A stretch of DNA of 64,000 bases, taken from assembly GCA_006218025.1 (NCBI GenBank), contig VBWA01000004.1, positions 1 through 64,000 of the forward strand, in the 5' to 3' direction. The DNA is from Rhodocyclaceae bacterium. GTDB taxonomy: Bacteria > Pseudomonadota > Gammaproteobacteria > Burkholderiales > Rhodocyclaceae. A model generated the notes under the pieces. The model searched no databases and was not told the DNA's origin. It worked only from the letters and a program-made list of their open reading frames with translations. Within the stretch, counting starts at the first letter, position 1; the number at the start of each line of letters is the position of its first letter. Below, piece after piece: positions 4,627 through 57,327 of this stretch. The position numbers and the translations under genes are program-made.

Positions 4627-4704
4627 CGTCGAATTATCCCATGCGGCGAATTCCGCGTGGATACCGTCCCAGGCGCAGGCGCACTGGGACATAATCCCCC
4701 GTCC

Positions 4705-5595
4705 ATGAAAAAGCTACCTCACGTTTCCCCCTACCTGCTGCTGACGCTGACCAACCTGTTCTGGGCCGGCAACTGGATCATCAGCCGTGCCTTTCGCGGC
4801 GAGCTGCCGCCGATCGCGCTGTCCTTCTGGCGCTGGGTGGTGGCCCTGCTCTGCCTGTTGCCGTTCGCCTGGCCGCACGTGCGCCGCGACTGGCCGCAAC
4901 TGCGCGCCGCCTGGCCGTGGCTGCTGCTCTTCGGCGCGCTGGGCACCGGCGGCTACAACGTGCTGGTCTACGGCGGCCTGCAATACACCACAGCGATCAA
5001 CGGCACGCTGCTGAACTCCTTCGTGCCGATCATGATCGTGCTGATGGCCTGGATGCTGCAGGGCAAACGCCTGCACGGCCGCGAGGCGACGGGCATCATG
5101 GTCTCCTTCGTCGGCGTGCTCGGCATCGTCGCCCACGGCGAGCTGCAGCGCCTGCTCGACCTGACGCTGAATGTCGGCGACCTCTGGATCCTCGCCTCGG
5201 TGCTGGCGTGGTCGGCCTACACGCTGCTGCTGTCGCGCCGCCCACCGGTTCATGCGCTGTCCTTCGTCACCGCCATCAGCGTCACCGGCCTGATTGTCCT
5301 GTGCCCCCTCTACGTCTGGGAACTGGCTCAGGGCCGCCACATCGTGCCGACACCGGGGGCGATTGCGGGCATCGTCTATACGGGGGTATTCCCCGCTTTC
5401 CTCGGCTACATCCTGTGGAATCGCGGCGTCGCCGAAGTCGGCCCGGCGCGCGCCGGGCTCTTCATGCACCTGGTACCGGCCTTCGGCATCGTGCTGTCGA
5501 TGATCTTTCTCGACGAGAAGCCAGCCCTCTATCACGCCGTCGGCATCGGCCTGATCTTCACCGGCATCTGGCTCAACACCCGGCGCGTGAAATGA
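4705..5595 (+). CDS. EamA/DMT-family membrane transporter
   Basis: A 296-residue, ten-helix inner-membrane protein of the drug/metabolite transporter superfamily, with two EamA repeats; the opening LTLTNLFWAGNWIISR and the second-half FPAFLGYILWNRGV are typical. Members export amino acids or other metabolites; the substrate cannot be told. The start is the ATG at 4705 (MKKLPHVSPYLLL). Its stop overlaps the mtfA start (ATGA), so the two are co-translated. Confidence 0.88.
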   Translation: MKKLPHVSPYLLLTLTNLFWAGNWIISRAFRGELPPIALSFWRWVVALLCLLPFAWPHVRRDWPQLRAAWPWLLLFGALGTGGYNVLVYGGLQYTTAINGTLLNSFVPIMIVLMAWMLQGKRLHGREATGIMVSFVGVLGIVAHGELQRLLDLTLNVGDLWILASVLAWSAYTLLLSRRPPVHALSFVTAISVTGLIVLCPLYVWELAQGRHIVPTPGAIAGIVYTGVFPAFLGYILWNRGVAEVGPARAGLFMHLVPAFGIVLSMIFLDEKPALYHAVGIGLIFTGIWLNTRRVK

Positions 5596-6384: not shown

Positions 6385-8400
6385 CTAAGCCTGGCTGAGC
6401 TGACTCTTGAGCGGCAGCGAGCGCACGCGCTTGCCGGTCGCGGCGAAGATGGCGTTGCACACGGCAGGGACCAGCGGCAGGATGGCCGGCTCGCCGTGGC
6501 CGCCCCAGAATCCGCCGGTGGGCACCAGCACGGTTTCGACCTTGGGCATGTCCGAAATCTGCGGCAGCGGGAAATCATGGAAATTCGATTCCACGATGCG
6601 CCCGTTCTTGACGCGGTTCTCCTGATTGATGATGGTGCCGAGGCCATAGATGACATTGCCTTCGGCCTGCGCGCGACAGGTGTCGGGGTTCACGACGTGA
6701 CCCGAGTCGATCGCGACGACGATGCGGTGTACCTTGAGCGCGCCCTTCGCGCTGACCGACACCTCCGCCACCATCGCAGCGAAACTGCCGAAGCCGTCGG
6801 AGACCGCGACGCCGCGATGAATGCCCTGCGGCAGCGGTGTTCCCCACCCGGCGGCCTTTGCCGCGGCTTCGAGCACGAGGCGATTCCTGTCGTCCTGCTT
6901 CAGCATCGCCCGCCGGTACTCGACCGGGTCCTTGCCTGCCGCAACCGCCAGTTCGTCGATGAAGCACTCGCGGTAGAAGGAATTCTGCTGGCCCGGCGCC
7001 CGCCAGAAACCGACCGGCACATGGCCGTTGCGCATGGCGTAATCGACCTGCTGGTGCGGCACCACATAGGGCATGTCGGTGAAGGAGCGCACCGCAGTGA
7101 AGTCGATCGCCCCATTGCCCATCGCCTGCGGCATCAGCACCTTGAGGATCGACGGACAGGCGATCCGGGTGTGCATGGCGATGAGCTTGCCGCTGGCATC
7201 GAGGCCCGCCTTCATCCGCACCATGCTCGCCGGGCGGTAGAAGCCATGCTGCATGTCCTCTTCGCGCGACCACATCATTTTCACCGGCGTACCCGGCAGC
7301 GCCATCGCGATCCTGACGCCCTGCCTGACGAAATCCTGCGGGCCGCCGCGGCGGCCGAAGCCGCCGCCCAGCATCATCTTGTGCACCTCGACCTTCTCCA
7401 GCGGCAGTCCGGCCGTCGCGGCAGCCGTCTCCAGCGAGGCTTCGCCGTTCTGCGTCGAGGTCCACACTTCGAGGAAGCCCTCGGGCTTCAGCCAGGCCGT
7501 GCAGGTCTGCGGCTCCATGGTGGCGTGGTTGAGGTAGGGCGAGGAATATTCGGCCCGACTTTTCGCGCCTGCGGCAGCTTCGGATCGGCGAGTCCGTCGC
7601 GCAGCATGGCGGCGATGGTCTCGCTGGAGACGTTGCCGTTGGCGCCGGCATCCCACTCGATCCTGAGCTTCTGCAGCGCCTGGTCGGCGCGCCACCAGCT
7701 ATCGGCAACGACGGCGACGAAATCGCCTTCGCGCACCACCTTCTTCACGCCGCGCATCTTCTCGGCAACGCTGGCGTCGACGCTCTTCAGCTTGCCGCCG
7801 AACACCGGGCACTGCGCAATCGACGCATGCAGCATGCCGGGCAGCGCGACATCGACGCCGAATACCGGCCTGCCCATGACCTTGTCCGGAATGTCGAGGC
7901 GATGCATCGATTTGCCGGCGATCTTCCAGTCCTTCGGGTCGCGCAGGGGGATGTCCTGCGGCGGCTGGAGGCGCGCCGCCTCGGCCGCCACCTCGCCGTA
8001 GCGCAGTCTGCGCCTGCTGGGCCCGTGCGTGATCACGCCGCGCTCCACCGTGCATTCGGTCGCCGGCACCTTCCAGCGCGCAGCGGCGGCATTGACCAGC
8101 ATCATGCGCGCCGCGGCGCCGGCCTTGCGCACATAGTCCTGCGAGCTGCGCACGCCCTGGCTGCCGCCCCTCGGCCACCAGTTGCGCCAGCGCGGTATAG
8201 GTGCCCTGGCCCATTTCGGAACGCGCGATGCGCACCACCACCCGGTCATCCGGATGGATCACCACCCAGGCATTGACTTCGGTGACCGGCGCCTTCGTGA
8301 AAATTGCAGCCTTGGCGACCAGCGGAAAGGAAAATTCGAGCGAGAGTCCGCCGCCCAGCGCGACGGACGCCTTGAGAAATTCGCGACGATTGATGTTCAT
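6385..8400 (-). pseudogene. Molybdenum hydroxylase large subunit (IorB-like), two frame disruptions
   Basis: This was a periplasmic molybdopterin-binding subunit of the isoquinoline 1-oxidoreductase/aldehyde dehydrogenase type. The N-terminus has a Tat-type twin-arginine signal (NRREFLKAS). Three pieces lie in different frames: 8400 to about 8168 (ends TALAQLVAEG), about 8168 to 7560 (GSQGVRSSQDYVRKAG to LPQARK) and about 7560 to 6385 (RAEYSSPYLNHATMEPQTC to the end). At both joins, residues usual in the family are missing: several tens at the first and about 20 at the second. That points to small deletions and not simple sequencing slips. The third piece still carries the cofactor regions GGGFGRRGGPQDF and GFWRAPGQQNS. 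The neighbouring small subunit is intact. Confidence 0.82.
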
Positions 8401-8410
8401 GGCGTCCTCC

Positions 8411-8884
8411 CTAAGCCTTCTTCGCCGCTGCGGACGCCGAGCTCGCGGCGACAGCGTGGATCGCCTCGCGGACCCGGGTGTAGGTTCCGCAGCGACACAG
8501 GTTGGTCATCGCCCGGTCGATGTCGGCGTCCGAGGGTTTGGGCGTCTTCGCCAGCAGCGCCGCCGCCGACATGATCATGCCGGTCTGGCAGTAGCCGCAC
8601 TGCGGCACCTCATGCTCGATCCAGGCCTCCTGCAGGGGATGCAGGCCGCCCGCGGCCAGCCCCTCGATGGTCACCACGGCCTTGCCTACCGCCGCCGAGG
8701 CGGGGACGACACAGGAGCGCACCGGCGCACCGTCGACGTGCACTGTGCAGGCGCCGCACAAGGCAACGCCGCAGCCGTATTTGACGCCGAGCAGGCCGAG
8801 GTGATCGCGCAACACCCACAGGAGGGGCATGTCCGGCTCGACGTCGACCTGATGCTGCTTGCCATTCACGTTCAGTTTGAGCAT
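8411..8884 (-). CDS. [2Fe-2S] small subunit of a molybdenum hydroxylase (IorA-like)
   Basis: A 157-residue electron-transfer subunit with two 2Fe-2S clusters. The N-terminal plant-type cluster ligands are in [16 protein letters not shown] with a later cysteine in SCVVP; the C-terminal cluster ligands are in CGYCQTGMI and LCRCGTY. It passes electrons from the molybdenum subunit to an acceptor. The alanine/lysine-rich tail ([10 protein letters not shown]) is unusual. The large-subunit gene follows after 10 bases but is broken, so this subunit probably has no partner unless one lies elsewhere. Confidence 0.9.
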
Positions 8885-9100: not shown

Positions 9101-11395
9101 GTGCCAATGACAAACTTGATGACAGCAAAGAGTTCGCTCCAAATCGGGTGGTGGATCCTGGTTGGGGTGGCGTTGAGCCTCTTTGGCTGGGTCGGGTGGG
9201 ATCTGGCGCAGGCGAGCCAACTCGAACAGGCCGCCGCCGACTGGCGTCAACGCCGGGCAATCTATGCAATGCTGGGGCTGGGCCTGCTGGGGGCGTTGTC
9301 AGCCATCGCCTGGAGCTGGAAGCGCAGCTACCACCAGACGACCGACCTGGCCAAAAAGCTGACAGAGGCTTTCAACGAAAAGTCCCGCGAGAGCCGCGCA
9401 TTGCTCGACGCGATCCCGGATCCGGCCTGGCTGGTCGATACCCAGGGGCACTTCCTGGCAATCAACGAAGCCTTTTGCCGGCTGGTACACAGGCCCATGG
9501 ACCAAATCCTCGGTACGACCGCCCGGGAGCTCTGGTCGCCCGAAATCGCCGAAAAACTGCTGGAAAGCCAGGCAGCGGTCTTGAAGGAACGCCGGCCGCT
9601 GCGCGAGGAGCGCTGGTTCGACATCGGCAACGGCCCGCAACCCTTCGAATTCCTGCGCGCCCCGGTCTACGACGAAAACGGCGAGCCCAAGGGCATTGCC
9701 GGTGTTGTCTGGGACATCTCGGAACGCTATGTGGCGGAAGAGAGGCAGCGCCTGATCACCCACGTCTTCGATCACAGCAACGAGGCAGTGCTGATCATGG
9801 ATCCCGAAGGCAAGATCATTGCCCTCAACAAATCCTTCTCGACCATCACCGGCTACGTCATAGACGATGCAAAGGGCCACCTTCCCACCCTGATTGCCGC
9901 CGAGCGCCACGACACCAATTTCTTCGAGTCCATCGCCCGAAGCCTTGCCGCGCATAGCGTATGGCGCGGCGAAGCCTGGCTGCGCCGCAAGAACGGAGCG
10001 GATTGCCCGGTATGGTGCAATGTCAGCCTGATCAGGGACGAACAAGGCAGGATCGTCAACCTGATTGCATTCATCAACGATCTCTCCGAGCGCAAGGCGG
10101 CCGAAGCCCGCATCGAATCGCTGGCCAACATCGACCAGATGACACTGCTGCCGAACCGCCAGGGCTTCTCCCGCGCGCTGGACGAATGGCTGGCGACGGG
10201 TGCCAATGGTGCGCTGCTGGTGTTCGATCTCGACCAGCTGGGTCGCATCAACGATGCCTTCGGCCATGTGGCAGGCGACGAACTGCTGGGGACGATCTGC
10301 GTTCGTCTGCGCGCCTTGCTGCAGGATGGCGACCTCCTTGGCCGCCTCGGCGGTGGCCAGTTCGCCGTGCTGCTCAAGCAGGCGCGCGACCGGTCGGCGG
10401 TGGAAGCCGTGAGCGGGACCCTGATCAATGCGATCGCCCAGCCCGTGGCGATCCACGGCAGCGACGTGGTCACCAAGGCCAGTGCCGGAATCTGCCTGAT
10501 TCCCGAGGATGGCGGTGACAGCGCCATCCTGCTGCGCAATGCCGACACCGCCATGCACAATGCCAAGACCAACGGCCAGGGCGTCTATCGTTTCTTCGCC
10601 GCCGACATGAGCGAGGAGGCGGCGGAACGCGTGCGCCTGGAGAGCGACTTGCGCTGGGCTCTGCAGCGCAGGGAGCTGGTGATCCACTACCAGCCGCAAG
10701 TGGACATCGCCAGCGGAAAGATCATCGGCTTCGAGGGTCTGTTGCGCTGGCGTCATCCCGAACTGGGCATGCTCGCGCCCGACAGTTTCATTCCGCTGGC
10801 CGAGGAAAGCCGCCTGATCATTCCCATCGGCACCTGGGTTCTCGAAGAAGCCTGCCGGCAGAACCGCGCCTGGCAGGATGAAGGGTTGCCGGCCATGGTG
10901 GTGGCGGTCAACCTCTCCGCCGTGCAGTTCCACGAGAACGACATTGTCGCCATCGTGGCGAGGAGCCTCGTCGCGGCAAACCTCGAGCCGCGCTGGCTGG
11001 AACTCGAAATCACCGAAGGCGTGATCATGCAGGAGCCGGAACGGGTCGTCCGCGTCCTGCAGGAATTGCGCGATCTCGGCGTCAGGCTGTCGATCGACGA
11101 CTTCGGTACCGGCTATTCCAGCCTTTCCTATCTCAAACGCTTCCCGATCGACAAGATCAAGATCGACAAGTCCTTTGTCCGCGATCTCGATCGCAGCACC
11201 GGCGACGCCGCGATCGTGCGCATGGTGATTGCCATTGCCGGCGAACTGGAACACAAAGTCATCGCCGAGGGGGTCGAGACCGCGGAGCAACTGGAATTCC
11301 TGCGGCAGCACAACTGCCTCGAGTATCAAGGCTATCTTTGCAGCCAGGCAGTGCCGCCGGGCGAGGTGCGGCGCTTGCTCGGCCTCGGCCCTTGA
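9101..11395 (+). CDS. Membrane PAS-PAS-GGDEF-EAL protein
   Basis: A cyclic-di-GMP signalling protein of up to 764 residues. Two membrane helices (about 14-32 and 54-72) bracket a short outer loop. Two PAS domains follow (about 97-215 and 220-345), then GGDEF (about 350-500) and EAL (about 510-760). The GGDEF signature reads GGGQF, losing the acidic residues, so cyclase activity is unlikely. The EAL signature reads EGLLRW, keeping the metal-binding glutamate. Other EAL residues are present: NLSAVQF, ELEITEG, DDFGTGYSSLSYL, KIDKSF, AEGVET. It is therefore probably a phosphodiesterase or a c-di-GMP sensor. Starts at GTG 9101, ATG 9107 or ATG 9119 are all possible. Its 3' end is repeated at 18612-18812. 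Confidence 0.9.
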   Translation: MPMTNLMTAKSSLQIGWWILVGVALSLFGWVGWDLAQASQLEQAAADWRQRRAIYAMLGLGLLGALSAIAWSWKRSYHQTTDLAKKLTEAFNEKSRESRALLDAIPDPAWLVDTQGHFLAINEAFCRLVHRPMDQILGTTARELWSPEIAEKLLESQAAVLKERRPLREERWFDIGNGPQPFEFLRAPVYDENGEPKGIAGVVWDISERYVAEERQRLITHVFDHSNEAVLIMDPEGKIIALNKSFSTITGYVIDDAKGHLPTLIAAERHDTNFFESIARSLAAHSVWRGEAWLRRKNGADCPVWCNVSLIRDEQGRIVNLIAFINDLSERKAAEARIESLANIDQMTLLPNRQGFSRALDEWLATGANGALLVFDLDQLGRINDAFGHVAGDELLGTICVRLRALLQDGDLLGRLGGGQFAVLLKQARDRSAVEAVSGTLINAIAQPVAIHGSDVVTKASAGICLIPEDGGDSAILLRNADTAMHNAKTNGQGVYRFFAADMSEEAAERVRLESDLRWALQRRELVIHYQPQVDIASGKIIGFEGLLRWRHPELGMLAPDSFIPLAEESRLIIPIGTWVLEEACRQNRAWQDEGLPAMVVAVNLSAVQFHENDIVAIVARSLVAANLEPRWLELEITEGVIMQEPERVVRVLQELRDLGVRLSIDDFGTGYSSLSYLKRFPIDKIKIDKSFVRDLDRSTGDAAIVRMVIAIAGELEHKVIAEGVETAEQLEFLRQHNCLEYQGYLCSQAVPPGEVRRLLGLGP

Positions 11396-11424
11396 CCGCG
11401 CGATTCCGCATCGGGGAAATGTCG

Positions 11425-11450
11425 AAAAAAAACGGAGCCCGCGGGCTCCG
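11425..11450 (-). terminator. Minus-strand rho-independent terminator (left copy)
   Basis: On the minus strand a CGGAGCCC/GGGCTCCG hairpin is followed by eight T. It would end minus-strand transcripts, originally those of the tRNA-His locus and now perhaps those of the island operon. Confidence 0.7.
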
Positions 11451-11451
11451 T

Positions 11452-11475
11452 ACTGGAATCACAATCCAGGACTCT
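11452..11475 (-). pseudogene. tRNA-His anticodon-arm fragment (left)
   Basis: On the minus strand this reads as the complete anticodon stem-loop of a tRNA-His (CTGGA-TTGTGAT-TCCAG, anticodon GTG) plus the end of the D-arm. Both the 5' half and the T-arm are missing. It marks the left junction of the island. Confidence 0.65.
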
Positions 11476-11682
11476 TGCTAGTTGTTATACATCTGTTGGC
11501 ACGCTTTTAAAGATCACGAAATGCTCCCTATAATTTTCCGGAACAAAACGGGAACATTGGCGCGGTCAATGGCCAAATTCAAACAACGAGATTCTGGTTG
11601 GTGGCAAGCTGCAATAAGGCAAATTGATATTCGCGCAAAACTGTTACGTCACGCCCTATGGCAACCTTCAATGACGCCGGCC

Positions 11683-12846
11683 CTAGCTGATTCCGCCATC
11701 GCCTAATACTTCATCCAGGATTTCGTGCTCGTCCAGATACGAGATATCGACCTGCTGCGAACTTGGGTCGAGCCCAGCGAGTCGCACCTCTTCCAACACT
11801 TCCTGCATCGTATTCACAATTTTTCTTGGAGTAATTTGCCTAAGCTGAGCGACGACGGCCTCCACCGCACTCTCCTCAAATGGAAAATAGCCAGCCTTTC
11901 GAGGGTCTGCCGTCGCCCTTGACCCATCAAGAATTTTGCACACGAACTCCATCGCATCCTCTTTACCCAACTCCTCCATTTGGATCTGCCGCTGGATGCG
12001 CCCCAAAATATATTGCTCGAATATTGCGGAGAAACTAGCACTTTCTGCAGAAAGTGCTATGACGAGACCAAAGCAATTTGGGCACCAATCATAGATATGC
12101 CGAAGCATGTCGTTCACGTCACGAGCTTCTTTTGCGCTGACATTGAGAAGTTCATCTAGCTCGTCGATCATTAGATAGACAGCCTTCTTAAATCGGGTTA
12201 CCTGTCCGCTGATTTCGACACCAAACACAAACAAATTTACTAATCGTGAAAACAACGCAGTTGCTTGGTAGTCTGTAAGACCACGCGGCATAAGAAGTTC
12301 ATTGATAAGTGGAACCGTCGACGCCCTGTAAATTTCCTTAGCAAGAGTTCCCAGCTCTGCAGGGAATCCGAGCCTATCTACAATCTCATCGTTTGTAACC
12401 GTAGCTCCCGCATGATTTGCGTCGCGATATCGCAGGATGGACATATCCAAGAAATTTCGAAATTCACGTACATCATTGTGAAGACCACAGCGATCTACCA
12501 AGTCATCAACAAACGCACCCGCAAAAGTGAGTTTTCCTTTGTCCTTCTTCAGGGTAGGGATCAGGTAGCAAAGCGCATCAAATTCTTCTTGTTGATGTTG
12601 AAGTATTTGGTACCTAGCCCAAAGCAACGCGTGAGACTTTCCAACTCCATAGTCTCCATAGATCATTATGAAATTCGAGTTGCCGACTTGATCAGCTCTT
12701 GAGCGTGAAAGATATTTAATTAGCTGATGCCGTTGCTTCTCATAACCAACCCAAATGTTCATGCGCGGATCGGCCCCATATACCGGGTTGGAGCGAAACG
12801 GGTTTTCTATAAGGTTCGATTGTCTATAAAACTCTTGCGGTGTCAT
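11683..12846 (-). CDS. AAA+ ATPase, ORC/Cdc6- or BREX-ATPase-like
   Basis: A 387-residue P-loop ATPase. After an N-terminal NPFRSNPVYG segment comes Walker A YGDYGVGKSH (63-72), Walker B VYLMIDELDELL (223-234), and a sensor-1-like strand LVIALSAES (261-269). The C-terminal 100 residues look helical and may be a winged-helix lid. The layout resembles ATPases of the ORC/Cdc6 or DUF2791 group seen in several defence systems, including BREX; the match is by pattern only. It is the last gene of the five-gene operon, 33 bases after the PLD gene. A role as DNA-loading or regulatory ATPase is inference. Confidence 0.72.
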   Translation of the reverse strand: MTPQEFYRQSNLIENPFRSNPVYGADPRMNIWVGYEKQRHQLIKYLSRSRADQVGNSNFIMIYGDYGVGKSHALLWARYQILQHQQEEFDALCYLIPTLKKDKGKLTFAGAFVDDLVDRCGLHNDVREFRNFLDMSILRYRDANHAGATVTNDEIVDRLGFPAELGTLAKEIYRASTVPLINELLMPRGLTDYQATALFSRLVNLFVFGVEISGQVTRFKKAVYLMIDELDELLNVSAKEARDVNDMLRHIYDWCPNCFGLVIALSAESASFSAIFEQYILGRIQRQIQMEELGKEDAMEFVCKILDGSRATADPRKAGYFPFEESAVEAVVAQLRQITPRKIVNTMQEVLEEVRLAGLDPSSQQVDISYLDEHEILDEVLGDGGIS

Positions 12847-12879
12847 TTTTTTGTCCCCAAGGAATATCTATGTTTTTTG

Positions 12880-13785
12880 CTATTTGCGCCGAATTAGTCG
12901 TACTCGTTCCTTTGGTATGTCTGTAGCTGCGAGAGACAAGTAGCAAGCAAAGTCGAGCGCATGTTCAAATTGATGTTCTGGGAGTTCGTAAGCAAGCTCT
13001 TCGTTTGGCATTTTCACTTCATTTGAATCTGCACCGATCGCGAGGCCCATAACAGTGAGGTTCGCCGAGCCGATTAGCGCAACACGCTTCGCTGGTCGCA
13101 CATTGTCCGCCGTTTCCTCAAAAAGATAGAGCTTTGCATGAACCCTGCTGTGGAACAGGATACTAATACCATCCTTTTCAAGCATCGAGAAGAAAGCTAA
13201 CCCCTCCAACGACTGAGGGGGGCGCGTTATCAAAGTTAGTTTGGTACCTTCTTCCTTTAGGTCGTGGAGCACCTTCCCGAAAGGAGAAAAAATAGAAAAT
13301 AACTCCTCGGACAAGTATGGGCTAATCAATGTAATTGCGTCATGCTTGATAAATCGCCTACTTAGAAGGGCCATTCGAATGTAGGTGGGCTGATAATTCT
13401 GTAGCAGCTGCCCGTCCAAAACCGCCGCCCTGCTTGCCGGACTCGATGCGCTTGATGTAACGGAGCTTCCAGCGGAAAATGGAATGATGGGTATTAGCGT
13501 TGCTCCAAGCAGCGGCGGAGACAGGTGATCCTCAACCGAGTGCGGACCGGCTCTATATAGAAAGATGTCCGCACCTTTCTGAATGTAAATGACACGAATT
13601 GCGGCGCCCCCCATACTCACATAACGAATCCATGCATCATCAATCCCATGGTAGCGGTGGTCGGTGGTTGAGGATGGAAACTTACATGTCGAGTCTAGGA
13701 TTTTTGAAAGTACGCGTCTTGCAAACTTGGAATCCCCTTCTGTCCTCAAGTCCGTTAAGAATTCTTCATAAAAGAATATCGCCAT
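12880..13785 (-). CDS. PLD-family nuclease domain with a RelE-like N-terminal region
   Basis: A 301-residue protein in two parts. Residues 1-90 resemble a RelE/ParE toxin fold: an N-terminal helical stretch, then YHGIDDAWIRYV and AAIRVIYIQKGADIFLYRAG-PHSVED, matching the yRviY...i.ll...gHd.vy pattern of that family. A Ser/Ala-rich linker follows (about 104-122). Residues 135-300 are a phospholipase D/HKD domain with H216-A-K218-LY and GSANLT (239-244). Only one HKD half-site is present, so an active enzyme would need to dimerise. PLD domains in such operons usually cut nucleic acid. It begins 7 bases after the preceding gene. The RelE reading is my inference from pattern and needs structure prediction. 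Confidence 0.75.
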   Translation of the reverse strand: MAIFFYEEFLTDLRTEGDSKFARRVLSKILDSTCKFPSSTTDHRYHGIDDAWIRYVSMGGAAIRVIYIQKGADIFLYRAGPHSVEDHLSPPLLGATLIPIIPFSAGSSVTSSASSPASRAAVLDGQLLQNYQPTYIRMALLSRRFIKHDAITLISPYLSEELFSIFSPFGKVLHDLKEEGTKLTLITRPPQSLEGLAFFSMLEKDGISILFHSRVHAKLYLFEETADNVRPAKRVALIGSANLTVMGLAIGADSNEVKMPNEELAYELPEHQFEHALDFACYLSLAATDIPKERVRLIRRK

Positions 13786-13792
13786 AATTAGC

Positions 13793-14992
13793 TCATGCTC
13801 TAAGCGAAATCGTTGCTTCGAAATTCTTTGAGTTTCGGTAAATTATTGACCCGCTACTATCCGAACCGAGAGCCTCCATTGTGCTGCGCAAGTCAGGCAA
13901 CGGACGGCACTTTGCGATGTAACACGCGACGACTGCGTGGAAAAACACGCCGATGGGAATTTCACGCCTTAGAAGATCGCGTTTTGGACAAAGTCTTCTA
14001 TAAGACGCATACATGCTTTCAAACTGTGTGAATACCTCCTGGGTGGCAGACCCAGCCTCTGTAGTGCCTGCCGCATCAAATTTCAACCCCTCCCTCACAG
14101 TACAGATGTGATCCCATAGCGAAATCCTAGGGATTGATAACTTCTCAGGTAAGAGATGTAAGCGTTCTAGGTCAAGCGAAAGCGGCCAACAGGTAATTGG
14201 TCCGTCATCCGAGCAGCCCATTGCCCTTCTAAAGCAAGACAAGAGTGTGGTACCAACCTTTGTCAATGCTAAGTCGTTGTCAATGAGTCCAAGAGATCGA
14301 GCCCAGTCCCTTCTTCGGCCAGTCACCTTCCGAAAGTAGTCATCCGAGATTTCCACCTTTTGCGGGTCCAATCGACTCGAGAGAGGCGCAGTTCTTGAGG
14401 CAAGGGGAGTAGTTCGCTTCGTTTCAGAGAGTGACTTTCCTACAGCCGCTCCCCCCATATTCGTGTGCTGGACATCGATTGAAATGGAACGAATGACCCG
14501 CTCTGATAGCTGAGGAGCCCTGACAACATTCAATAGTCTGGCACGCTTTTCGAGGATCATCCCACGCAAGAGAGGCTCGACCTTCTCCCGTGCAAATTGA
14601 CCCGCGAGGAAGTTTAAGAAAATATCACCATCTGCCAAGATCAATTGGCTGCCCAAGATGAACTTCAAGGCATCCGAGAACTGCTGATCGTTTTCGATAT
14701 CCAAATAAGCTAGGGCTAGGGCGTCCAAGCACGGTAAAACATGAACCTCGCGTTTTTGGACTTTTATGAGTTGGAGAGCGTTGAAGAAATCGGCAATATT
14801 GTTGGTCTGCAGACCCCATCCATTTTTTTCATCACGAACCAAGCGGTCCCAAGACGCAGGGGATATTTCTTTATCGGCAACGTAGAGTTGCACCAGATCG
14901 CGCACTCTCGAAAACGTATCCTCGAGCCCGACGGACCAACCGATCTTCCTTATGAAAATGCTATACGGTTCAGACGGGGCTATAGCCGCCAT
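13793..14992 (-). CDS. Unknown protein of the island operon
   Basis: A 399-residue protein that I do not recognise. It begins SEPYSIFIRKIGWSVGLEDTFSRVRDLVQLY and is mostly helical by composition, with no membrane segment or catalytic motif visible. The region about 215-260 (DYFRKVTGRRRDWARSLGLIDNDLALTKVGTTLL) looks like a winged helix, as in DNA-binding or effector proteins of multi-gene defence systems. Its start overlaps the end of the HerA-like gene by 23 bases and its end is 7 bases from the PLD gene, so it is a tightly coupled member of the operon. Confidence 0.7.
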   Translation of the reverse strand: MAAIAPSEPYSIFIRKIGWSVGLEDTFSRVRDLVQLYVADKEISPASWDRLVRDEKNGWGLQTNNIADFFNALQLIKVQKREVHVLPCLDALALAYLDIENDQQFSDALKFILGSQLILADGDIFLNFLAGQFAREKVEPLLRGMILEKRARLLNVVRAPQLSERVIRSISIDVQHTNMGGAAVGKSLSETKRTTPLASRTAPLSSRLDPQKVEISDDYFRKVTGRRRDWARSLGLIDNDLALTKVGTTLLSCFRRAMGCSDDGPITCWPLSLDLERLHLLPEKLSIPRISLWDHICTVREGLKFDAAGTTEAGSATQEVFTQFESMYASYRRLCPKRDLLRREIPIGVFFHAVVACYIAKCRPLPDLRSTMEALGSDSSGSIIYRNSKNFEATISLRA

Positions 14993-16367
14993 GGGCTGTT
15001 ATCCTCGGGCGAATTTTTACCATTACGGTCCGACTCGTCGAGTGATCCCCAAGAAAACACTCCCCTGACTCCAAGAGCCGTAGCATGTCGCTGAAATCGT
15101 TTAACTGTGTTCCCGATACCTTTAGACAAGAAAGTGGCTTGGTGGGAACCCTAGCGACTGCGGCTGCGATATCTGTTTGGAAAGCTAGGCGATGGTTGAA
15201 GCTCAAATTGACTTGGCTCAAAATTCGATCATCAACAGCGGAGGGCTGTTGGGTCGCAAGAACCAATGAAAGCCCTGCATCGCGCCCGCGCTTGACGTAT
15301 TCAACCAGCGCGTCCCGAGCGGGCGAGTCCACATCTTTTGGTGCCACCACGTGTGCTTCGTCGATGAGCAGCCATACCTTGCTCGGCACATCCATTACTT
15401 TGCTTGGCTGCTTAAAGAAATCAGCCACTTTCTTCTGTCTATGGTACTCCCCCATTACTGTGAATAGCTTTCGAGCAATCAGTGCGGTTACAAGCGACTT
15501 ATCTTCATCCCGTAGATCACGCAACATAAGCACGCTACACTGCCCAGGTTTCAACAAATCAGAAATATCTAAGCCATCTTTGTGAAACAGTTTGGATTCG
15601 TTGTACTCCAGGAGACGATAGTGAATCGCGTTTCTTGAAGCATCAGGGATATTTGGAAAGTTACGCGCATTTCCAATGTAATTAAGCATATCCTCAATTG
15701 AAAATGCTTGATCAGAGAGGTATCGCAGCGTTTCTCCTAGCACATGGCCTTGCGGGCTATAGATTTGTTGCCCAAGCAATCTGCACCAATCTTCATGCGG
15801 GACATCTCTTGGCCTTATCTGCAAAGTTTTTTCGTCACCGAGAAAACCTTGCCCCCCCTCTGGAACATAGATCACACAATTCGAGAGCGAATTGGGTTGA
15901 ATATTCCACTCCTTCAATGCATCAAGTTGGCCTTTGTTTTGTTCTACATCGTGTCTCGGGGCATAACGTAGCGTCCAGAATTGGCTCTGCATATCAATAA
16001 GCACCGTAGAAACTGGCTCTACATCAATGCTCACATTTGACGGGTTTGTGAGTGAAGAGAGACCCTCAACCAACACCCCCAGATCAAAGCTCTTTCCGCT
16101 TCCCCTCGTCCCAGATACATAGATTACGTGCGGGAAGCTGACGTTGACCCAAGCATCGGCGCCCAGATAGCTCTTAGCTTGTGCCCCCTCAAAAATCTTG
16201 CCGATGTATATCAAGTTATGGGGTGACTGACCCACTCCATGACCACCAAAAATTACATTGTTTCCCTTTGCAATATAGTTAATTTTGACTATGGGGTCGA
16301 CGGCCGTATAGGGCGTCGAATCAATTACCTTGCCAAAACTGTCAGCTAATTTTGTAGAGAAACTCAT
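14970..16367 (-). CDS. HerA/FtsK-superfamily ATPase
   Basis: A DNA-translocase-type ATPase of the HerA branch, 465 residues from the preferred ATG at 16365-16367 (MSFSTKLADSF); an ATG at 16391 adds 8. An N-terminal beta-rich HerA-like domain is followed by Walker A VSGTRGSGKSFDLG (about 85-97), Walker B VWLLIDEAHVV (about 331-341) and the HerA sensor block KRGRDAGLSLVLATQQPSAV (about 359-378). HerA proteins form hexameric rings that pump DNA and often work with a nuclease (NurA, Sir2 or PLD). Here the PLD protein two genes on is the obvious candidate. It overlaps the upstream gene by 26 bases and the downstream gene by 23. Confidence 0.88.
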   Translation of the reverse strand: MSFSTKLADSFGKVIDSTPYTAVDPIVKINYIAKGNNVIFGGHGVGQSPHNLIYIGKIFEGAQAKSYLGADAWVNVSFPHVIYVSGTRGSGKSFDLGVLVEGLSSLTNPSNVSIDVEPVSTVLIDMQSQFWTLRYAPRHDVEQNKGQLDALKEWNIQPNSLSNCVIYVPEGGQGFLGDEKTLQIRPRDVPHEDWCRLLGQQIYSPQGHVLGETLRYLSDQAFSIEDMLNYIGNARNFPNIPDASRNAIHYRLLEYNESKLFHKDGLDISDLLKPGQCSVLMLRDLRDEDKSLVTALIARKLFTVMGEYHRQKKVADFFKQPSKVMDVPSKVWLLIDEAHVVAPKDVDSPARDALVEYVKRGRDAGLSLVLATQQPSAVDDRILSQVNLSFNHRLAFQTDIAAAVARVPTKPLSCLKVSGTQLNDFSDMLRLLESGECFLGDHSTSRTVMVKIRPRITAHGGYSPV

Positions 16368-18213
16368 TGCGGTAGTCTTTGTACGTAACAAATTTAGGAT
16401 GAGCCCCAGCAGAGAGAACGAGCACTGAAGTCGGTCGGAGGACGTCTATGTAATGTGAGTGATTTGCCGCTGCAACAAAACAGATTCGACCGGTACGAAG
16501 AACGTGTCGCCGAAGATTATGCGAAAGAATTTTGGCGCTCAATGGATCAAGATCAGAGCAAAACTCATCTATTAGCCATACTGGCTCATCTCGAAGCAAT
16601 AGATCTGCAAGCATCGCCCTATACCGCTGGCCACGGCTCAGGAAGTTGAATGGCTTCAGAAAAACGAATGCCTCCGAAAGTCCAACATTGCTTAGTGCCG
16701 CGAATGTAGCTTCCGGAGAATAGCGTTCAGAAAAATAGTCAAAGATGGGTTTGTCTGAATTAATGGGCTTTAACCATGCAACCGAATAATCCTGCTTTCC
16801 TTTGAAGGACAGAATGAGGCTCTCATTGTCTGAAACACCATCTGGATCAAGCGCGCGAAGCAAGACGCTTTTCCCACTTCCGCTTGCGCCGGCCACAAAG
16901 ATCAGATTTCCGGCTGACGCTTCAAAATCAATTGGGCCAAATACAAGTTGCTGCAATAAATCGCCCTTGATTCCAAAGGCATCCATAATCAGCCGGGTGT
17001 AGCGCGTGTGTGGAATTTTGTAGTTTGTACTAACGCGCATTCCCTTAAGCCTTAAGGAAGCCGCGCTGCCACGAAATCTCTTTCGACTTTGCTCCCGAGA
17101 TGATTTGTAATTTGCAAACTTCGCTAGATACTCTTCAGTCGCATCGTCGAGCCCACACATATAGTATGGGAGGGGAAATCGAATCACATTTCGAAATGAC
17201 AACCACTCCGTTGGCGATAGTGATGCGGCAGGGTTCTCTGTGTTAACGACATCTTCGAGTCTCCGCAATACGTCATCAAAATCCTTCCCACTGTCCCTGC
17301 AATATTTTTCTAAAGAGCGAAGATATTTTTGTTGCAGCGTCATGATGCCTGAGTTTATCTTCTGACCCTTTCGCATCTGGATAAGGTCAGATACGATTCT
17401 CTGAAGGTTCCCTTCGGTTTTTCCGACAAGAACAAAGCCAGCCGCCGAAACGAAGTCAATGTAATTTAGCATCTCTGCAGAAATCTCAAGGAACAGCGGG
17501 CGCCTTCCTGCAATGTGCCAACGGGTGCGTGAGAAACGCTTTGCGGCCTCTATTAGAGTACGCGCAAGCCCAAGCCCTCGAAATTCCGGGGCCACAACTA
17601 CCCGAGCTATCCGCGCAATCAAGTTAACATTCTGACGCATCGCATCTTGGTCCCAACAAGTCCAGGATACTGGCCGGGTTGGATGCGTGAATGGGTTTGC
17701 GAATAAGTCATGCCGCGGCTTCACCATGAGCAACGGCATTTGGATCTCAACGTAACCGACCGGAACCGTTGTGTCTTCAAGGCGCAAATAACACAATAAA
17801 ATCGCCTTGCGTCCCCCGCCTTCGGGCGCACGCTTTTTTGGGTCGGCGTCGTCAGCCGCGGGAGCTTCAAACGTCTTGTAGTGAAATTGCTCCAGATAAT
17901 GGAGTGAAGCGAAATCATCTGGACGGTGCGGTTCATGTACATCGTATGCAACCTGAAAACTACCCAACGTTACCTTCCCACTTTCGCTGAAGACAGGTAA
18001 CACAGGAATGAGGTCATTTGCGTCCTCAGTCGAGACGATGGAAATACTTGGGGAATGGCCCACCGAGATATTCAATTCGGTTTTCGGCCCTACAAGCGAA
18101 TACCTTGGAAGCATGACAACAAGTTGCCCCTTTTCGCCTTCTTGGCGAAGGGAAATGCGACGCTGGTTATCCTTGAGTGCACTGGTCGCTACGACGTAGT
18201 TCTTGTTCCGCAT
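16342..18213 (-). CDS. GNAT acetyltransferase fused to an ABC-type ATPase
   Basis: A 623-residue fusion. The middle (about 135-285) is a GNAT acetyltransferase domain with the acetyl-CoA motif VVVAPEFRGLGLARTL (205-220). The C-terminal third is a soluble ABC ATPase: Walker A VAGASGSGKSVLL (440-452), signature LSRGQRYRAM (525-534), Walker B PVWLIDEFCSDLD (545-557) and a switch histidine in AAANHSHYID. No membrane segments are present, so it is not a transporter. Fusions of this design are known (COG2401, predicted acetyltransferase-ABC ATPase), mainly from archaea and mobile elements, with no settled function. It is the first gene of the five-gene operon. Confidence 0.85.
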   Translation of the reverse strand: MRNKNYVVATSALKDNQRRISLRQEGEKGQLVVMLPRYSLVGPKTELNISVGHSPSISIVSTEDANDLIPVLPVFSESGKVTLGSFQVAYDVHEPHRPDDFASLHYLEQFHYKTFEAPAADDADPKKRAPEGGGRKAILLCYLRLEDTTVPVGYVEIQMPLLMVKPRHDLFANPFTHPTRPVSWTCWDQDAMRQNVNLIARIARVVVAPEFRGLGLARTLIEAAKRFSRTRWHIAGRRPLFLEISAEMLNYIDFVSAAGFVLVGKTEGNLQRIVSDLIQMRKGQKINSGIMTLQQKYLRSLEKYCRDSGKDFDDVLRRLEDVVNTENPAASLSPTEWLSFRNVIRFPLPYYMCGLDDATEEYLAKFANYKSSREQSRKRFRGSAASLRLKGMRVSTNYKIPHTRYTRLIMDAFGIKGDLLQQLVFGPIDFEASAGNLIFVAGASGSGKSVLLRALDPDGVSDNESLILSFKGKQDYSVAWLKPINSDKPIFDYFSERYSPEATFAALSNVGLSEAFVFLKPFNFLSRGQRYRAMLADLLLRDEPVWLIDEFCSDLDPLSAKILSHNLRRHVLRTGRICFVAAANHSHYIDVLRPTSVLVLSAGAHPKFVTYKDYRNEFLYKIS

Positions 18214-18611
18214 TGTTCTTCTTCGCTAGGGATAAATGCAACGCATCAACTCGGCTTGATTGGCGCTGAGATGTCCAAATTGCTTCAGCGCTAAGGCTTA
18301 TAGGATGGCTGGTGGGTGTTGCTGGCATTATTGCACCAAACTCCTTGGACCAAGCCGGATGACCAAAATGTTGCGTTTGACATCGACCACCCTCCGCTTT
18401 TTTGCGCACGTCGTTTTTGCAGTGAATATTTGGTGGCGTTCCAACCGCACGCTCGCACGAATTGCGGACTAAAGAAGAGCCCAACGTGACATCTATCCTA
18501 TGCCTGTATCTTTGTCATAAAGCGCGAGCATACAATTGTTCGTCAATCACGCCTTGCACTCGGGTGCCACCGCAAGGCTGCCTATCGAGCTGCTGGTTAC
18601 TCAAAAATGCC
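18214..18611. other. Island leader region without a gene
   Basis: About 400 bases between the first island gene and the right flanking repeat. It must hold the promoter of the minus-strand operon. Short open frames on both strands have no recognisable features. I see no terminal inverted repeat matching the left end. Confidence 0.5.
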
Positions 18612-18812
18612 AGCTCTAGCACCATCGCTATCGTGCGCATGGTGATCGCCATTGCCAGCGAACTGGAACACAAGGTCATTGCCGAGGGCGTCGAGACTCC
18701 GGAGCAACTGGAATTCCTGCGGCAGCACCACTGCCTCGAATATCAGGGCTATCTTTGCAGCCAGGCAGTGCCGCCGGGCGAGGCCCGGCGCCTGCTCGGC
18801 CTCGGCCCCTGA
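18612..18812 (+). pseudogene. 3' fragment of an EAL-domain gene
   Basis: Encodes the last roughly 65 residues of an EAL domain (IVRMVIAIASELEHKVIAEG to ARRLLGLGP), nearly the same as the C-terminus of the protein at 9101-11395 but with scattered substitutions. The 5' part is missing and the region before it is island DNA, so it has no start of its own. It is part of the right flanking repeat. Confidence 0.88.
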
Positions 18813-18887
18813 CCGCGCGATTCCGCATCGGGGAAATGTCGAAAAAAAACGGAGCCCGCGGGCTCCGTAATCACAATCCAGGACTCT
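18630..18887 (+). repeat. Right flanking repeat of the foreign island
   Basis: Direct copy of 11213-11475 lacking 5 bases of the tRNA anticodon stem. The substitutions (13-14 by eye, mostly third-codon positions) mean it is not a fresh duplication. Confidence 0.85.
18842..18867 (-). terminator. Minus-strand rho-independent terminator (right copy)
   Basis: Same CGGAGCCC/GGGCTCCG hairpin plus T8 as at 11425-11450, placed just 3' of the truncated tRNA-His. It was probably the natural terminator of that tRNA. Confidence 0.72.
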
Positions 18888-18908
18888 ACCAACTGAGCTA
18901 CGGCCACC
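18869..18908 (-). pseudogene. tRNA-His(GTG), 5' half only
   Basis: On the minus strand the sequence has the extra G at position -1 typical of tRNA-His, the acceptor strand GTGGCCG, the D-arm GCTCAGTTGGTAGAGT and the anticodon loop TTGTGAT. It then jumps straight into the terminator. The 3' side of the anticodon stem, the T-arm and the 3' acceptor strand are absent, so it cannot be a working tRNA. A functional tRNA-His must exist elsewhere. Confidence 0.82.
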
Positions 18909-19040
18909 ACCGAAACTGCACGCCGTCCGGAAAGAAGACCCGGCTCGGCAGGGGGCGAATTATGGAAGATGGCAGCAAAAGAATCAAGCAATCAACCATC
19001 CTGAGCTTGTCACCCCATCTGAACTCGCGTAAGATATTTG

Positions 19041-19063
19041 CAGAACATTGTTCCACTATGCAG
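19041..19063 (+). promoter_or_regulatory. Candidate IclR operator, operon 1
   Basis: CAGAAC-ATT-GTTCC followed by ACTATGCAG, 53 bases upstream of the first acyl-CoA dehydrogenase gene. The core GAAC-N3-GTTC is a palindrome. The same 23-base motif with four changes occurs at 40288-40310 before the second catabolic operon. Confidence 0.6.
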
Positions 19064-19115
19064 TTCTGCAGGCTTTTCAGCCGCAAGACGGCACCCATCA
19101 TAGGACCCGACATCC

Positions 19116-20336
19116 ATGGATCTCAATTTCACTGCCGAGGAGCAGTCGTTCAGGGAAGACGTGCGCCGCTTTCTGCGGGCGAAACTGCCTGCCGAAATCA
19201 GCCGCAAAGTGCTCGGCGGCAAGCGCCTGGAAAAGGACGATTTCGTCCGCTGGCAACAGATACTGCACGCGCAGGGATGGGGTGCGGTGGGATGGCCCAC
19301 GGCCTTCGGCGGCACCGGCTGGAATGCCGTGCAGCAGCATATCTTCGACGAGGAATGCTCTGATGCGGGAGCGCCGCTGCAACTGCCCTTCGGCCTCAAG
19401 ATGGTGGCGCCGGTGATCATGGCCTTCGGCAATCCGGCGCAGCAGCAACGCTTCCTGCCACGCATCATCGACGGCAGCGACTGGTGGTGCCAGGGCTATT
19501 CCGAGCCCGGCTCGGGCTCCGATCTCGCCTCGCTCAAGATGCGCGCTGTCCGGGTCAACTCACCTGAGGGCGACCATTACGTGGTGAACGGCCAGAAAAC
19601 CTGGAACACCCTCGGCCAGTACGCCGACTGGATCTTTTGCCTGGTGCGTACCAGCACCGAAGGACGCCAGCAGGAAGGCATTTCCTTCCTGCTGATCGAC
19701 ATGAAGACGCCGGGCATCACGGTGCGCCCGATCATCATGCTGGACGGCGAACACGAGATCAACGAAGTCTGGTTCGAGGACGTCCGGGTTCCCGTGCAGA
19801 ATCTGATCGGCGAAGAGAACAAGGGCTGGACCTATGCCAAGTTCCTGCTCGGCCACGAGCGCACCGGCATCGCCGGCGTCGGCCGCTCCAAGCGCGAGCT
19901 GAAGAAGCTGAAGGAAATCGCCCGCAAGGAGACCGCCAACGGCCGGCCGCTCATCGAGGATCAGCGCTTTCGCGACCGCATCGCGCAGGTCGAGCTCGAA
20001 CTCATGGCGCTGGAGATCACCAACCTGCGCGTGATTTCGGCTGAGGGAGAGAAGAAGCTCGCGCCCGGACCCGAGGCCTCCATCCTCAAGATCAAGGGTT
20101 CCGAAATCCAGCAGATGCTGACCGAGCTGCAAATGCAGGCACTGGGCCACTACGCCCTGCCCTGGATCGAGGAGGCGCTGGATGCGGCCTGGACCGGCGA
20201 CGCGCTGATGGAAGCCTATGCCGACCATGCCGCGCCGCTCTCCGGCCGCTACTTCAACTTCCGCAAGACCACCATCTACGGCGGTTCCAACGAAATCCAG
20301 AAAAACATCATCTCGCAGATGATTCTCGGCCTGTAA
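19116..20336 (+). CDS. Acyl-CoA dehydrogenase, large subunit of a heteromeric enzyme
   Basis: A FAD-dependent acyl-CoA dehydrogenase of 406 residues, similar in pattern to PimC of pimeloyl-CoA breakdown and to the FadE-type alpha subunits of steroid side-chain degradation. Key segments: QGYSEPGSGSDLAS (about residues 129-142, flavin/substrate contact), GQKTWNTLGQYADW, and YGGSNEIQKNII at the end. The usual YEGT near the C-terminus, which carries the catalytic glutamate in many homotetrameric enzymes, reads YGGS here; heteromeric members place their base elsewhere. The small-subunit gene follows 12 bases later. It introduces a double bond next to the CoA thioester, passing electrons to ETF. 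Confidence 0.88.
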   Translation: MDLNFTAEEQSFREDVRRFLRAKLPAEISRKVLGGKRLEKDDFVRWQQILHAQGWGAVGWPTAFGGTGWNAVQQHIFDEECSDAGAPLQLPFGLKMVAPVIMAFGNPAQQQRFLPRIIDGSDWWCQGYSEPGSGSDLASLKMRAVRVNSPEGDHYVVNGQKTWNTLGQYADWIFCLVRTSTEGRQQEGISFLLIDMKTPGITVRPIIMLDGEHEINEVWFEDVRVPVQNLIGEENKGWTYAKFLLGHERTGIAGVGRSKRELKKLKEIARKETANGRPLIEDQRFRDRIAQVELELMALEITNLRVISAEGEKKLAPGPEASILKIKGSEIQQMLTELQMQALGHYALPWIEEALDAAWTGDALMEAYADHAAPLSGRYFNFRKTTIYGGSNEIQKNIISQMILGL

Positions 20337-30771: not shown

Positions 30772-31536
30772 CTACTTGACGGAAATGAGATGGTCGGCCC
30801 AAGGTGGCACCTTGGCAAACAGCACATGAAAGCCATCCGAGAAACTGCCGAAACGAAACCCGTATTGCTGGGCAAGAATGGCCAGACTACTCCTCGAGAA
30901 CAAGCTGATGTGTCCATTGCGGGGAGACGCGTACCACCAGCTTATCCTTTGGCGAGGTTGAAGGTTCCCGTCCGACAACAAGGTCGAGAACACTACAAGA
31001 CCATTCGGCGCCAACAATGAACGCAAATTCCCCATCAATCCCTGCACGTCGGGAACATGTTCGAAAACTTCGAATGCCGTCACCAGATCGAATTCCCCGA
31101 TCTGCTCCACACTCATGCTTCGATCCACAAAAGGATCGTAGGAGACGGATTGCCAGCCGGATTCTCTCAGGAGACCGGCAAGCAGCCCGCTACCGCCACC
31201 ATAATCAAGATGCCTGATCGAATGCGCCCGATCACCGAACATCGCAATCAGATTTCCGGCATTTGCCCGCGGTCTCGCATCGACGTAGTCCGGGTCCACG
31301 TTGACATACTGATCGTTATAGATTTCTTCCTCGAACTTCTCCAAAGGCCATGCCGCGAGTTCGGGAGCGAAACAGAAGCCGCATTTGCCGCAAAGGGCGT
31401 AGTAGACGGGAATGCCTGCAAGGCCGAGGAATTTGCCTCGTGCCTCCTCGCATGATTTGTTGAAGTCAACAACATCGAGCAGCGAACACGCGTCGCTACA
31501 AACCGGACAGCTCAACTCCTGGTCTGGATTCGCCAT
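30772..31536 (-). CDS. Class I SAM-dependent methyltransferase with an N-terminal zinc-ribbon
   Basis: A 254-residue protein. The N-terminus has cysteines in SCPVCSDACS and ALCGKCGFCF spaced like a zinc ribbon. The SAM-binding motif I reads HLDYGGGSGLLAGLL (about 103-117), followed by DLVTAFEVFEHVPD, a layout found in methyltransferases of sugar or lipid modification (Methyltransf_23 type). The substrate is unknown. The DNA is a little less GC-rich than its neighbours and a higBA remnant lies immediately upstream, so it may have been imported. Confidence 0.8.
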   Translation of the reverse strand: MANPDQELSCPVCSDACSLLDVVDFNKSCEEARGKFLGLAGIPVYYALCGKCGFCFAPELAAWPLEKFEEEIYNDQYVNVDPDYVDARPRANAGNLIAMFGDRAHSIRHLDYGGGSGLLAGLLRESGWQSVSYDPFVDRSMSVEQIGEFDLVTAFEVFEHVPDVQGLMGNLRSLLAPNGLVVFSTLLSDGNLQPRQRISWWYASPRNGHISLFSRSSLAILAQQYGFRFGSFSDGFHVLFAKVPPWADHLISVK

Positions 31537-31544
31537 CACAGGGC

Positions 31545-31760
31545 CAATCAATTGCGGTTACCCTTGATGGCATGCGACACCCCAATGGGCGAAACGCCAA
31601 CTACCCTGGCAAATTGCGCCTGCGACCCGGCAAACTCTTTCAGCGCCGCGGCCGGATACTTGCCTGGATCGATGGCGGACAACCCACTCTTGATCATGAG
31701 ATCACTCCCTGGCGGAAATCGACGCATTCAAGCTCGAAGACAATTTTGCGCGGCCTTGTC
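31545..31760 (-). pseudogene. higBA toxin-antitoxin remnant
   Basis: On the minus strand, 31760-31700 encodes the last residues of a HigB toxin (VFELECVDFR, compare FEVEIVDYH of the intact copy). From ATG 31695-31697 it encodes a truncated HigA: SAIDPGKYPAAALKEF, then SQAQFARVVGVSPIGVSHAI, aligning with the intact HigA at 35934-36230. The fragment ends within the helix-turn-helix, about 50 residues in. Most of higB and the second half of higA are gone. Confidence 0.75.
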
Positions 31761-57041: not shown

Positions 57042-57327
57042 GCGGCACGGCCCGCGATTCCACCGCGCCGCGCCGAACTGCATGCGGCATGAGCGGAAAT
57101 CGTAGTCCCTTGTCCCATGCTACGAAAACCGTCTGAAACAATTGGAAACATATTGAATCCATGAAGACATGAAGACATGGCGCTGCTACAGCACACTGCG
57201 AAAATGCTCGGACCAAGATCGAAATAGCAAATTGGTCGGGTATCGGTATTGTTGCGGCACCTACCGCTGACCCTTTTCCTGACGCTGTCGTTCCCGGCAG
57301 AAACCGACCTCTTCAAGAAGGCAAAGC

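Follow-up and report, generated by a model that had tools for sequence, protein, structure and literature searches.

We found that five adjacent genes at positions 11476-18610 of a 64,000-nucleotide (nt) stretch of a Rhodocyclaceae bacterium (assembly GCA_006218025.1, contig VBWA01000004.1, positions 1 to 64,000; this whole stretch is hereafter the window) constitute a recurring unit that is transferred between genomes as one. In the order of transcription, they encode a GNAT acetyltransferase-ABC ATPase fusion (gene 1), a HerA-type ATPase (gene 2), a middle protein of no assigned family (gene 3), a PLD-family protein (gene 4) and an AAA+ ATPase (gene 5). The five open reading frames (ORFs) in the ORF list of the window are all intact and on the minus strand, successive genes being joined by a 26-nt overlap, a 23-nt overlap, a 7-nt gap and a 33-nt gap, and the block has a GC fraction of 0.482 versus 0.637 in the rest of the window (0.574-0.666 in 85 other 7.1-kb pieces of the window, which are sliding and mutually overlapping). 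A sequence-only reading of this DNA had described the five genes with their order and spacing, and had called them an AT-rich block within GC-rich flanks; both points are borne out by the ORF coordinates, junctions and composition, and the limits that it gave coincide with the edges of an insert. Its domain calls agree with Pfam matches above the cut-off for genes 1 and 2, while the PLD fold is backed by a structure model. To these we add a RelE/YoeB-like part on the PLD protein, a 259-nt direct repeat and a tRNA-His target.

Recurrence and transfer of the five-gene unit

A HerA motif fragment, aligned with its Haloplanus relative, was scanned against a genome collection of 84,980 species; 96 stretches match one of two patterns and 51 of these, a lower bound, encode relatives. 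A tblastn search with the five proteins splits the 51 HerA loci into clade A (12 loci), clade B (11) and a third group of 28 that resembles the BREX-Related Capture (BRC) systems, in which HerA is the only one of the five proteins matched. The 23 loci of clades A and B span several proteobacterial classes and metagenome-assembled genomes (MAGs) of other phyla. Clade A is found in Pseudothauera, Luteimonas, Pseudomonas carbonaria, Halieaceae, Rhodanobacteraceae, Stappia, Rhodovulum, Acidithiobacillus and uncultured or MAG records that include Planctomycetota, MAG phylum labels being prone to error through mis-binning. All five genes are collinear in 10 of the 12 clade A loci (the start of one, L040, is cut by a contig end), the exceptions being L039, where the contig stops after HerA, and L048, in which a shortened ORF joins the PLD to the C-terminus of the AAA+ protein. 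The same row of GNAT-ABC, HerA, middle protein, PLD and AAA+ is collinear in 9/11 clade B loci, one of which (L050) has one extra gene, and the other two, both from Acidovorax, have the PLD and AAA+ genes on the opposite strand. Gene 3 has its homologue in the middle protein of clade B (hhalign 98.9%, E 1.3e-17, 347 columns, with Acidovorax and L054 outside the comparison), and the PLD parts of the two clades are likewise homologous to each other (99.1%). Accordingly, the sequence-only claim of a new unit, which was to fall if homologues rarely occurred together, survives: the five genes recur together in unrelated genomes. Two apparent defects among the relatives were rejected, namely loss of the middle gene in L054, which has an unbroken, 76% identical homologue at 7265-8416, and a break in L043, whose stop lies upstream of the likely start. 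Pseudogene status of the window copy was likewise rejected, its five ORFs being intact and aligning with relatives over nearly their whole length.

The junctions recur together with the genes: the overlap of HerA with GNAT-ABC is 26 nt in 10/12 clade A loci and that of HerA with gene 3 is 23 nt in 10 of 11 loci, both as in the window, where the HerA start was placed at the ATG at 16367 from the overlaps in relatives (whose own starts were script-chosen). The ten pairwise-distance correlations among the five proteins range over r 0.942-0.978 (the window plus 9/12 clade A loci, all but L039, L040 and L048). The HerA proteins of Pseudomonas carbonaria, a gammaproteobacterium, and Stappia, an alphaproteobacterium, are 92.5% identical, which we take as a sign that the unit moves across classes; either of the two is 87-89% identical to the Acidithiobacillus protein. 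The GC of the core is below that of the flanks in 11/12 clade A loci (the exception is L039), and no more than 3 of the 22 flanked loci share a flank gene family, as defined at E<=1e-8. In sampled genomes, gene 3 was found in 1/399 of the order, gene 1 in 1/398 of the phylum (E<=1e-20) and gene 4 in 1/369 of the class (E<=1e-8), each time in its own genome only. By tblastn, genes 3 and 5 have no match in plasmids and gene 2 none in phages, and no related locus was confirmed on viral contigs, whether gene 1, gene 3 or the complete HerA pair served as query; the HerA fragment matched 19 viral loci at 33-47% identity. The alignments on which residue counts below rest are A6 for gene 1 (omitting L040, which is partial, and L043), A3 for gene 3 (omitting L039), A4 for gene 4 (omitting L039, which is cut, L043 and L048), A5 for gene 5 (omitting L039 and L048), A7 (omitting L054, L057 and L058) and A8 (omitting L056 and L058).

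Domains of the five proteins

Gene 1 (16342-18213, 623 amino acids (aa)) unites an Acetyltransf_1 (PF00583) and an ABC_tran (PF00005) domain, both above the Pfam cut-off. Its PADLOC matches are mad3 (6.7e-10, the best stretch covering 55 of 374 positions), mad8 (1.7e-5) and AriA (3.7e-5), and among PHROGs the ABC part matches phrog_11143 (5.2e-25) and the GNAT part phrog_886 (3.6e-5). Walker A, Walker B and the LSxGQ signature of the ABC part are conserved in 10/10 aligned rows, and so is an EISAEML motif in the GNAT part. Phages carry ABC and GNAT-like parts either as near neighbors beside ParB-like genes or as one ABC-GNAT protein, and the ABC parts of these match gene 1 clearly in blastp (5e-23, 7e-23). 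Two phage loci (L008:1316-4797 and L009:3119-7375) have a split counterpart of gene 1, with a GNAT-like protein and a small ABC ATPase encoded in a cluster with ParB-like genes, and in the second a terminase gene follows the GNAT-like gene within 1.1 kb. A fused phage protein (P12024S) is 53.9% identical over 93% to a protein in Tenacibaculum phage pT24. A passage of PMC7824862 (citing Iyer 2013) describes a GNAT coupled with an ABC ATPase that is predicted to acyl-modify a nucleobase, terms its chemistry uncharacterized and names phage pT24; our link to it is through the same phage, that is, at the phage level and not the gene level. With both domains in one protein and its kinship to phage members, gene 1 belongs with this GNAT-ABC family, from which it differs in being accompanied by the HerA/PLD/AAA+ set and in its domain order (see below). 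Iyer 2013 may already show such GNAT-ABC operons. Two clade B loci (L054:3533-3898 and L055:6585-7049) have a small gene, a possible regulator, directly before GNAT-ABC; its products in the two are 72% identical over 98 aa.

Gene 2 (14970-16367, 465 aa) is a HerA/FtsK-type pumping ATPase that matches PF01935 (DUF87/HerA; 1.4e-9, above the Pfam cut-off) and, in PADLOC, mad8 (1.5e-14) and HerA (3.8e-14), with Walker A and B in 10/10 rows. In a quick HerA tree, clade A is recovered with support of 100 and clades A and B together with 97, next to BRC HerA with 93 (26 BRC rows, from 25 of the 28 BRC-like loci plus Haloplanus); clade B by itself is not recovered as a single branch, and the outgroup is attached by a long one. 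A HerA-like ATPase also forms the end of a protein of about 1850 aa in plasmid operons (L012, L013 and L014) that further encode a large protein kinase and a middle protein; PP2C or Fic genes accompany some of these operons.

Gene 3 (13793-14992, 399 aa) has no match in Pfam, PADLOC, NCBIfam or PHROGs, and a PDB sequence search with its profile returned one chance-like match (E 0.77). Its structure model (pLDDT 83.9, pTM 0.85) has helix-helix-helix-hairpin stretches near residues 26-85 and 313-397; between them, near 217-258, lies a helical part containing an LGL...LTxxG motif. We read these as three winged-helix-like units in a putative DNA-binding protein. Gene 5 (11683-12846, 387 aa) is an AAA+ ATPase, perhaps Orc/Cdc6-BrxD-SspC-like, with Walker A and B in 10/10 rows. 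It matches Pfam AAA_16 and BrxC_BrxD below the cut-off and, among PADLOC models, DpdH only (0.047). Its relatives weakly match BrxD (3/11), SspC (2/11) and DpdH (1/11; best E in the set 0.0036), the window protein itself matching none of the three at E<=0.01, and a PDB sequence search with the gene 5 profile gave no match at E<=0.1.

Gene 4 (12880-13785, 301 aa) combines a RelE/YoeB-like part (about residues 1-90) with a PLD-family domain (about 136-290). The latter scores 26.3 bits against PLDc_2, below the Pfam cut-off of 27, and the protein matches ZacB in PADLOC (4.4e-5). In the structure model (pLDDT 81.2, pTM 0.55), the C-terminal part retrieves the SauUSI restriction nuclease (1e-5), Zucchini and NucT by Foldseek, and the N-terminal part retrieves YoeB, YafQ and RelE at weak E values of about 0.01 (target TM 0.55-0.68), none at E<=0.001. 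The PLD motif HxK...GSxN is intact in the window copy (RVHAKLYLF and IGSANLT). HxK is also intact in 8/12 clade A copies, the window included, and in 11/11 clade B copies. Since the short clade B PLD proteins retain the motif throughout, PLD cutting is probably the older effector. In L038, L040, L041 and L046, HxK is replaced by NVR, QSR, NSK and NAR, respectively, with the RelE-like region largely kept; the loss in L041 seems recent, because its close relative L044 is intact.

Proposed function and competing explanations

We propose, giving it about an even chance, that the unit is a self-contained, horizontally moving anti-invader cassette that is restriction-modification-like and driven by the HerA pump. 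The winged-helix-like gene 3 and the Orc/Cdc6-BrxD-SspC-like AAA+ protein of gene 5 would recognize DNA or load on it, the HerA hexamer would pump it and the PLD domain of gene 4 would cut it. The GNAT-ABC protein would be the licensing or modifying arm, its ABC ATPase scanning DNA and an acyl mark on bases sparing the cell's own DNA, and the RelE-like part of clade A could be an added RNA-cutting or regulatory effector. This account would make sense of how host DNA could escape a nuclease unit that lacks a methyltransferase, of the place of the GNAT-ABC gene at the head of the operon, where its overlap with HerA is conserved, and of the presence in phages of the GNAT-ABC pair by itself. What we infer here is defence, the action of the GNAT on DNA, discrimination of self from non-self, what the RelE-like part does and each step of the mechanism; the sister HerA in BRC loci, the weak BrxD and SspC matches, the SauUSI/NucT-like PLD fold and the GNAT-ABC family predicted to modify DNA point that way. 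Of the coupled system for recognizing and processing invading DNA that the sequence-only reading had put forward, the recurring coupled unit without a complete named counterpart thus stands, and the action on invading DNA stays a prediction that the relatives favor. More tentatively, the unit could be a new kind of restriction-modification, in which GNAT-ABC writes an acyl mark on bases, the HerA pump and PLD nuclease capture and cut unmarked DNA, and phages with a split writer (ABC and GNAT-like proteins beside ParB-like genes) use the same chemistry to pass as self. What sets the unit apart is a GNAT-ABC protein joined to a HerA/PLD cutting module in a mobile unit that has no complete named-system match in the libraries used. 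It makes testable whether an acyl base modification, besides that of Mom, is common to bacteria and phages, and clade B, whose PLD protein is simpler, can serve for comparison.

Several observations weigh against this anti-invader proposal. GNAT enzymes typically bind acyl-CoA through the motif R/Q-x-x-G-x-G/A, which among the 10 rows is strictly met by the window alone (RGLGLA): seven rows carry RGLG but S or T in the last position, and the glycine is missing from L038 (RGANLS) and L046 (RGGSLS). The GNAT part matches its phage counterparts weakly (4e-6 and 2e-4, five sequences being compared), and fused phage proteins have the opposite domain order, ABC-GNAT versus GNAT-ABC in gene 1. As HxK is lost in 4/12 clade A PLD domains, PLD cutting cannot be required in all units. 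No fold from the PDB or from viruses matches the gene 3 model at E<=0.001, and the likeness of gene 3 to the DUF4007-like profile is short and weak (9.5%, versus 51.7% for the clade B middle protein). A defence-island setting is not established, the PADLOC matches in the flanks having been counted without a control, and the neighbors in the window are an EAL-type gene and acyl-CoA dehydrogenase-like genes, as judged by eye.

The main rival, which we consider rather unlikely, is an abortive-infection complex, in which HerA, the AAA+ protein and gene 3 would sense invading DNA or packaging and toxin-like effectors (a RelE-like RNase, the PLD and a GNAT acetylating RNA or protein) would act with no DNA mark. 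It is favored by the RelE-like part, in which R54, R64 and R78 are invariant and H82 nearly so across 10 clade A rows and which is largely kept where those four PLD motifs are lost, and by the five genes including no methyltransferase as judged by Pfam. Against it, 8/11 clade B PLD proteins are 177-196 aa long, too short for a RelE-like part, with the PLD motif intact in every clade B copy (L056, whose start is unsure, and L057 and L058, at 299 aa, stand outside this RelE comparison).

It is unlikely that the unit is instead cargo of mobile elements directed against one another (entry exclusion, or competition among plasmids and integrative and conjugative elements) or serving their own DNA processing, rather than a host anti-phage defence. 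Conjugation genes of the trbI type adjoin it in L041 and L043, and the window copy lies at a tRNA gene like an integrated element. However, among the flank families listed, trb-type genes accompany at least 2 of the 12 clade A units, and no flank family is common to more than 3 of 22 loci.

We regard as improbable a third alternative, that the unit is a divergent branch of a named system, BRC or MADS. In PADLOC, no named system is matched in full by the five proteins, in line with the sequence-only reading, which could not assign the whole gene set to one, and we recognized no description of the five-gene set in the literature, as covered by titles and the starts of abstracts of open-licence papers; it may be in print elsewhere. 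The likeness to BRC lies in the sister HerA and, going by the parts of PMC12839542 on these systems, in a GNAT that is present in some BRC loci and in the theme of an Orc/Cdc6-type ATPase with winged helix-turn-helix (wHTH) partners. The difference lies in the remaining partners: the BrxC-like, PglZ-like, DUF4007-like and GNAT proteins of the Haloplanus BRC locus (L011) match 0/23 clade A/B loci (tblastn, E<=1e-4, some loci being cut by contig ends), in contrast to 22/28 BRC-like loci with at least one such match, and GNAT-ABC, PLD and gene 3 are found instead. Among the first three of these queries, only the BrxC-like protein (DUF6079) has a Pfam match; the PglZ and DUF4007 labels follow from gene order and PMC12839542. 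Upstream of the Haloplanus BRC locus (L100:5385-7406) there are 7-deazaguanine-type genes, namely queC, queE and a 6-pyruvoyl tetrahydropterin synthase. With MADS, the unit shares matches to the ABC-type mad3 model (gene 1) and the HerA-type mad8 model (gene 2), but no other MADS model matches any of the five proteins at E<=0.1; the remaining MADS genes include a methylation component.

The nearest theme is that of the HerA/FtsK capture systems, which the parts of PMC10853773 describing them present as HerA with an Orc/CDC6 AAA+ ATPase, a nuclease and wHTH proteins in one mobile neighborhood. Compared with this set, the HerA is clear in our unit, the AAA+ is weakly BrxD/SspC-like, the wHTH character of gene 3 comes from modeled secondary structure and the nuclease is a PLD and not a restriction endonuclease (REase), whereas the Orc/CDC6 systems carry an active and an inactive REase in that account. 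The main text of PMC10853773 has no PLD or phospholipase and two mentions of GNAT, both on DndF. The Ssp and BREX ATPases SspC and BrxD are weakly similar to some gene 5 relatives, but no phosphorothioation or methylation domain was found by Pfam among the five proteins. Lastly, a housekeeping DNA repair or segregation module, for which the pairing of HerA with a nuclease in archaeal repair could be cited, is very improbable for a set of such rare and patchy occurrence in the sampled genomes, low GC and recent transfer.

Insertion site and flanking genes

The anti-invader cassette proposed above sits at a tRNA-His gene in the window. At its left edge, a 24-nt tRNA-His piece from the anticodon region (11452-11475, minus strand) is 100% identical to positions 21-44 of the same-genus tRNA-His, and at its right edge the 5' half of a tRNA-His gene (18869-18907, minus strand) is 97% identical to positions 1-39; the 19-nt sequence AATCACAATCCAGGACTCT from the anticodon region is present at both (11457-11475 and 18869-18887). 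The block is bracketed by a 259-nt direct repeat (11194-11452 and 18611-18869, 92% identity), the right-hand copy of which (plus strand) is a second copy of the 3' end of the EAL-type gene with its terminator. The complete GGDEF/EAL-type gene is resident in the left flank (9101-11395, plus strand), its name and that of the acyl-CoA dehydrogenase-like genes being assigned by eye from translations. In a same-genus genome (G1113), the row is uninterrupted and without an insert: the end of the EAL gene, the terminator, an intact tRNA-His(gtg) and an acyl-CoA dehydrogenase-like gene. The 3' half of tRNA-His is kept on neither side of the insert in the window, and a DNA search of the 4.44-Mb, 141-contig assembly (scored 99.97% complete) detected the two edge pieces and no intact tRNA-His; this loss is possibly a real disruption or else an assembly error confined to the region of the palindromic terminator. 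The edges resemble the known pattern of integration at the anticodon site of a tRNA gene, though the unit carries no integrase: none is among the five genes, and none by family name among the 10 flank proteins of relatives scanned. The leader region upstream of gene 1 (18214-18610) is devoid of Rfam matches (0 in a search of 10900-19200) and of sigma-70-like promoters (0 in a scan of 18100-18900). Elsewhere in the window, lower-GC stretches lie at 31001-32000 and 57001-64000 (0.54-0.59).

Around the relatives, we scanned 87/124 flank ORFs of clade A and 68/95 of clade B (at least 140 aa, within 6 kb). At E<=1e-8, 14 PADLOC models match among the 87 clade A proteins, one protein each, including mad1, mad2, mad3 and mad8, and 36 models match among the 68 clade B proteins, many being HerA models that were possibly matched by a single protein; among the clade B matches listed, mad3 accounts for at least three proteins and mad8 for at least one. 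Because these counts lack a control set, we claim no enrichment. About 2 kb from a clade B unit (L059:3192-5200), a tRNA-Leu is followed by a 608-aa protein (3374-5200) matching DUF6538, which we take to be an integrase N-terminus. Genes for proteins of 391 aa (L045:5674-6849) and 422 aa (L053:5634-6902) immediately precede a clade A unit in Rhodovulum and a clade B unit in Actibacterium, respectively; the two proteins are 48% identical to each other and have no Pfam match at 1e-4 (nor, for the L045 protein, a PDB match). A tRNA-Thr(cgt) lies a few kb from both units, and the two sites are possibly one hotspot exchanging variants.

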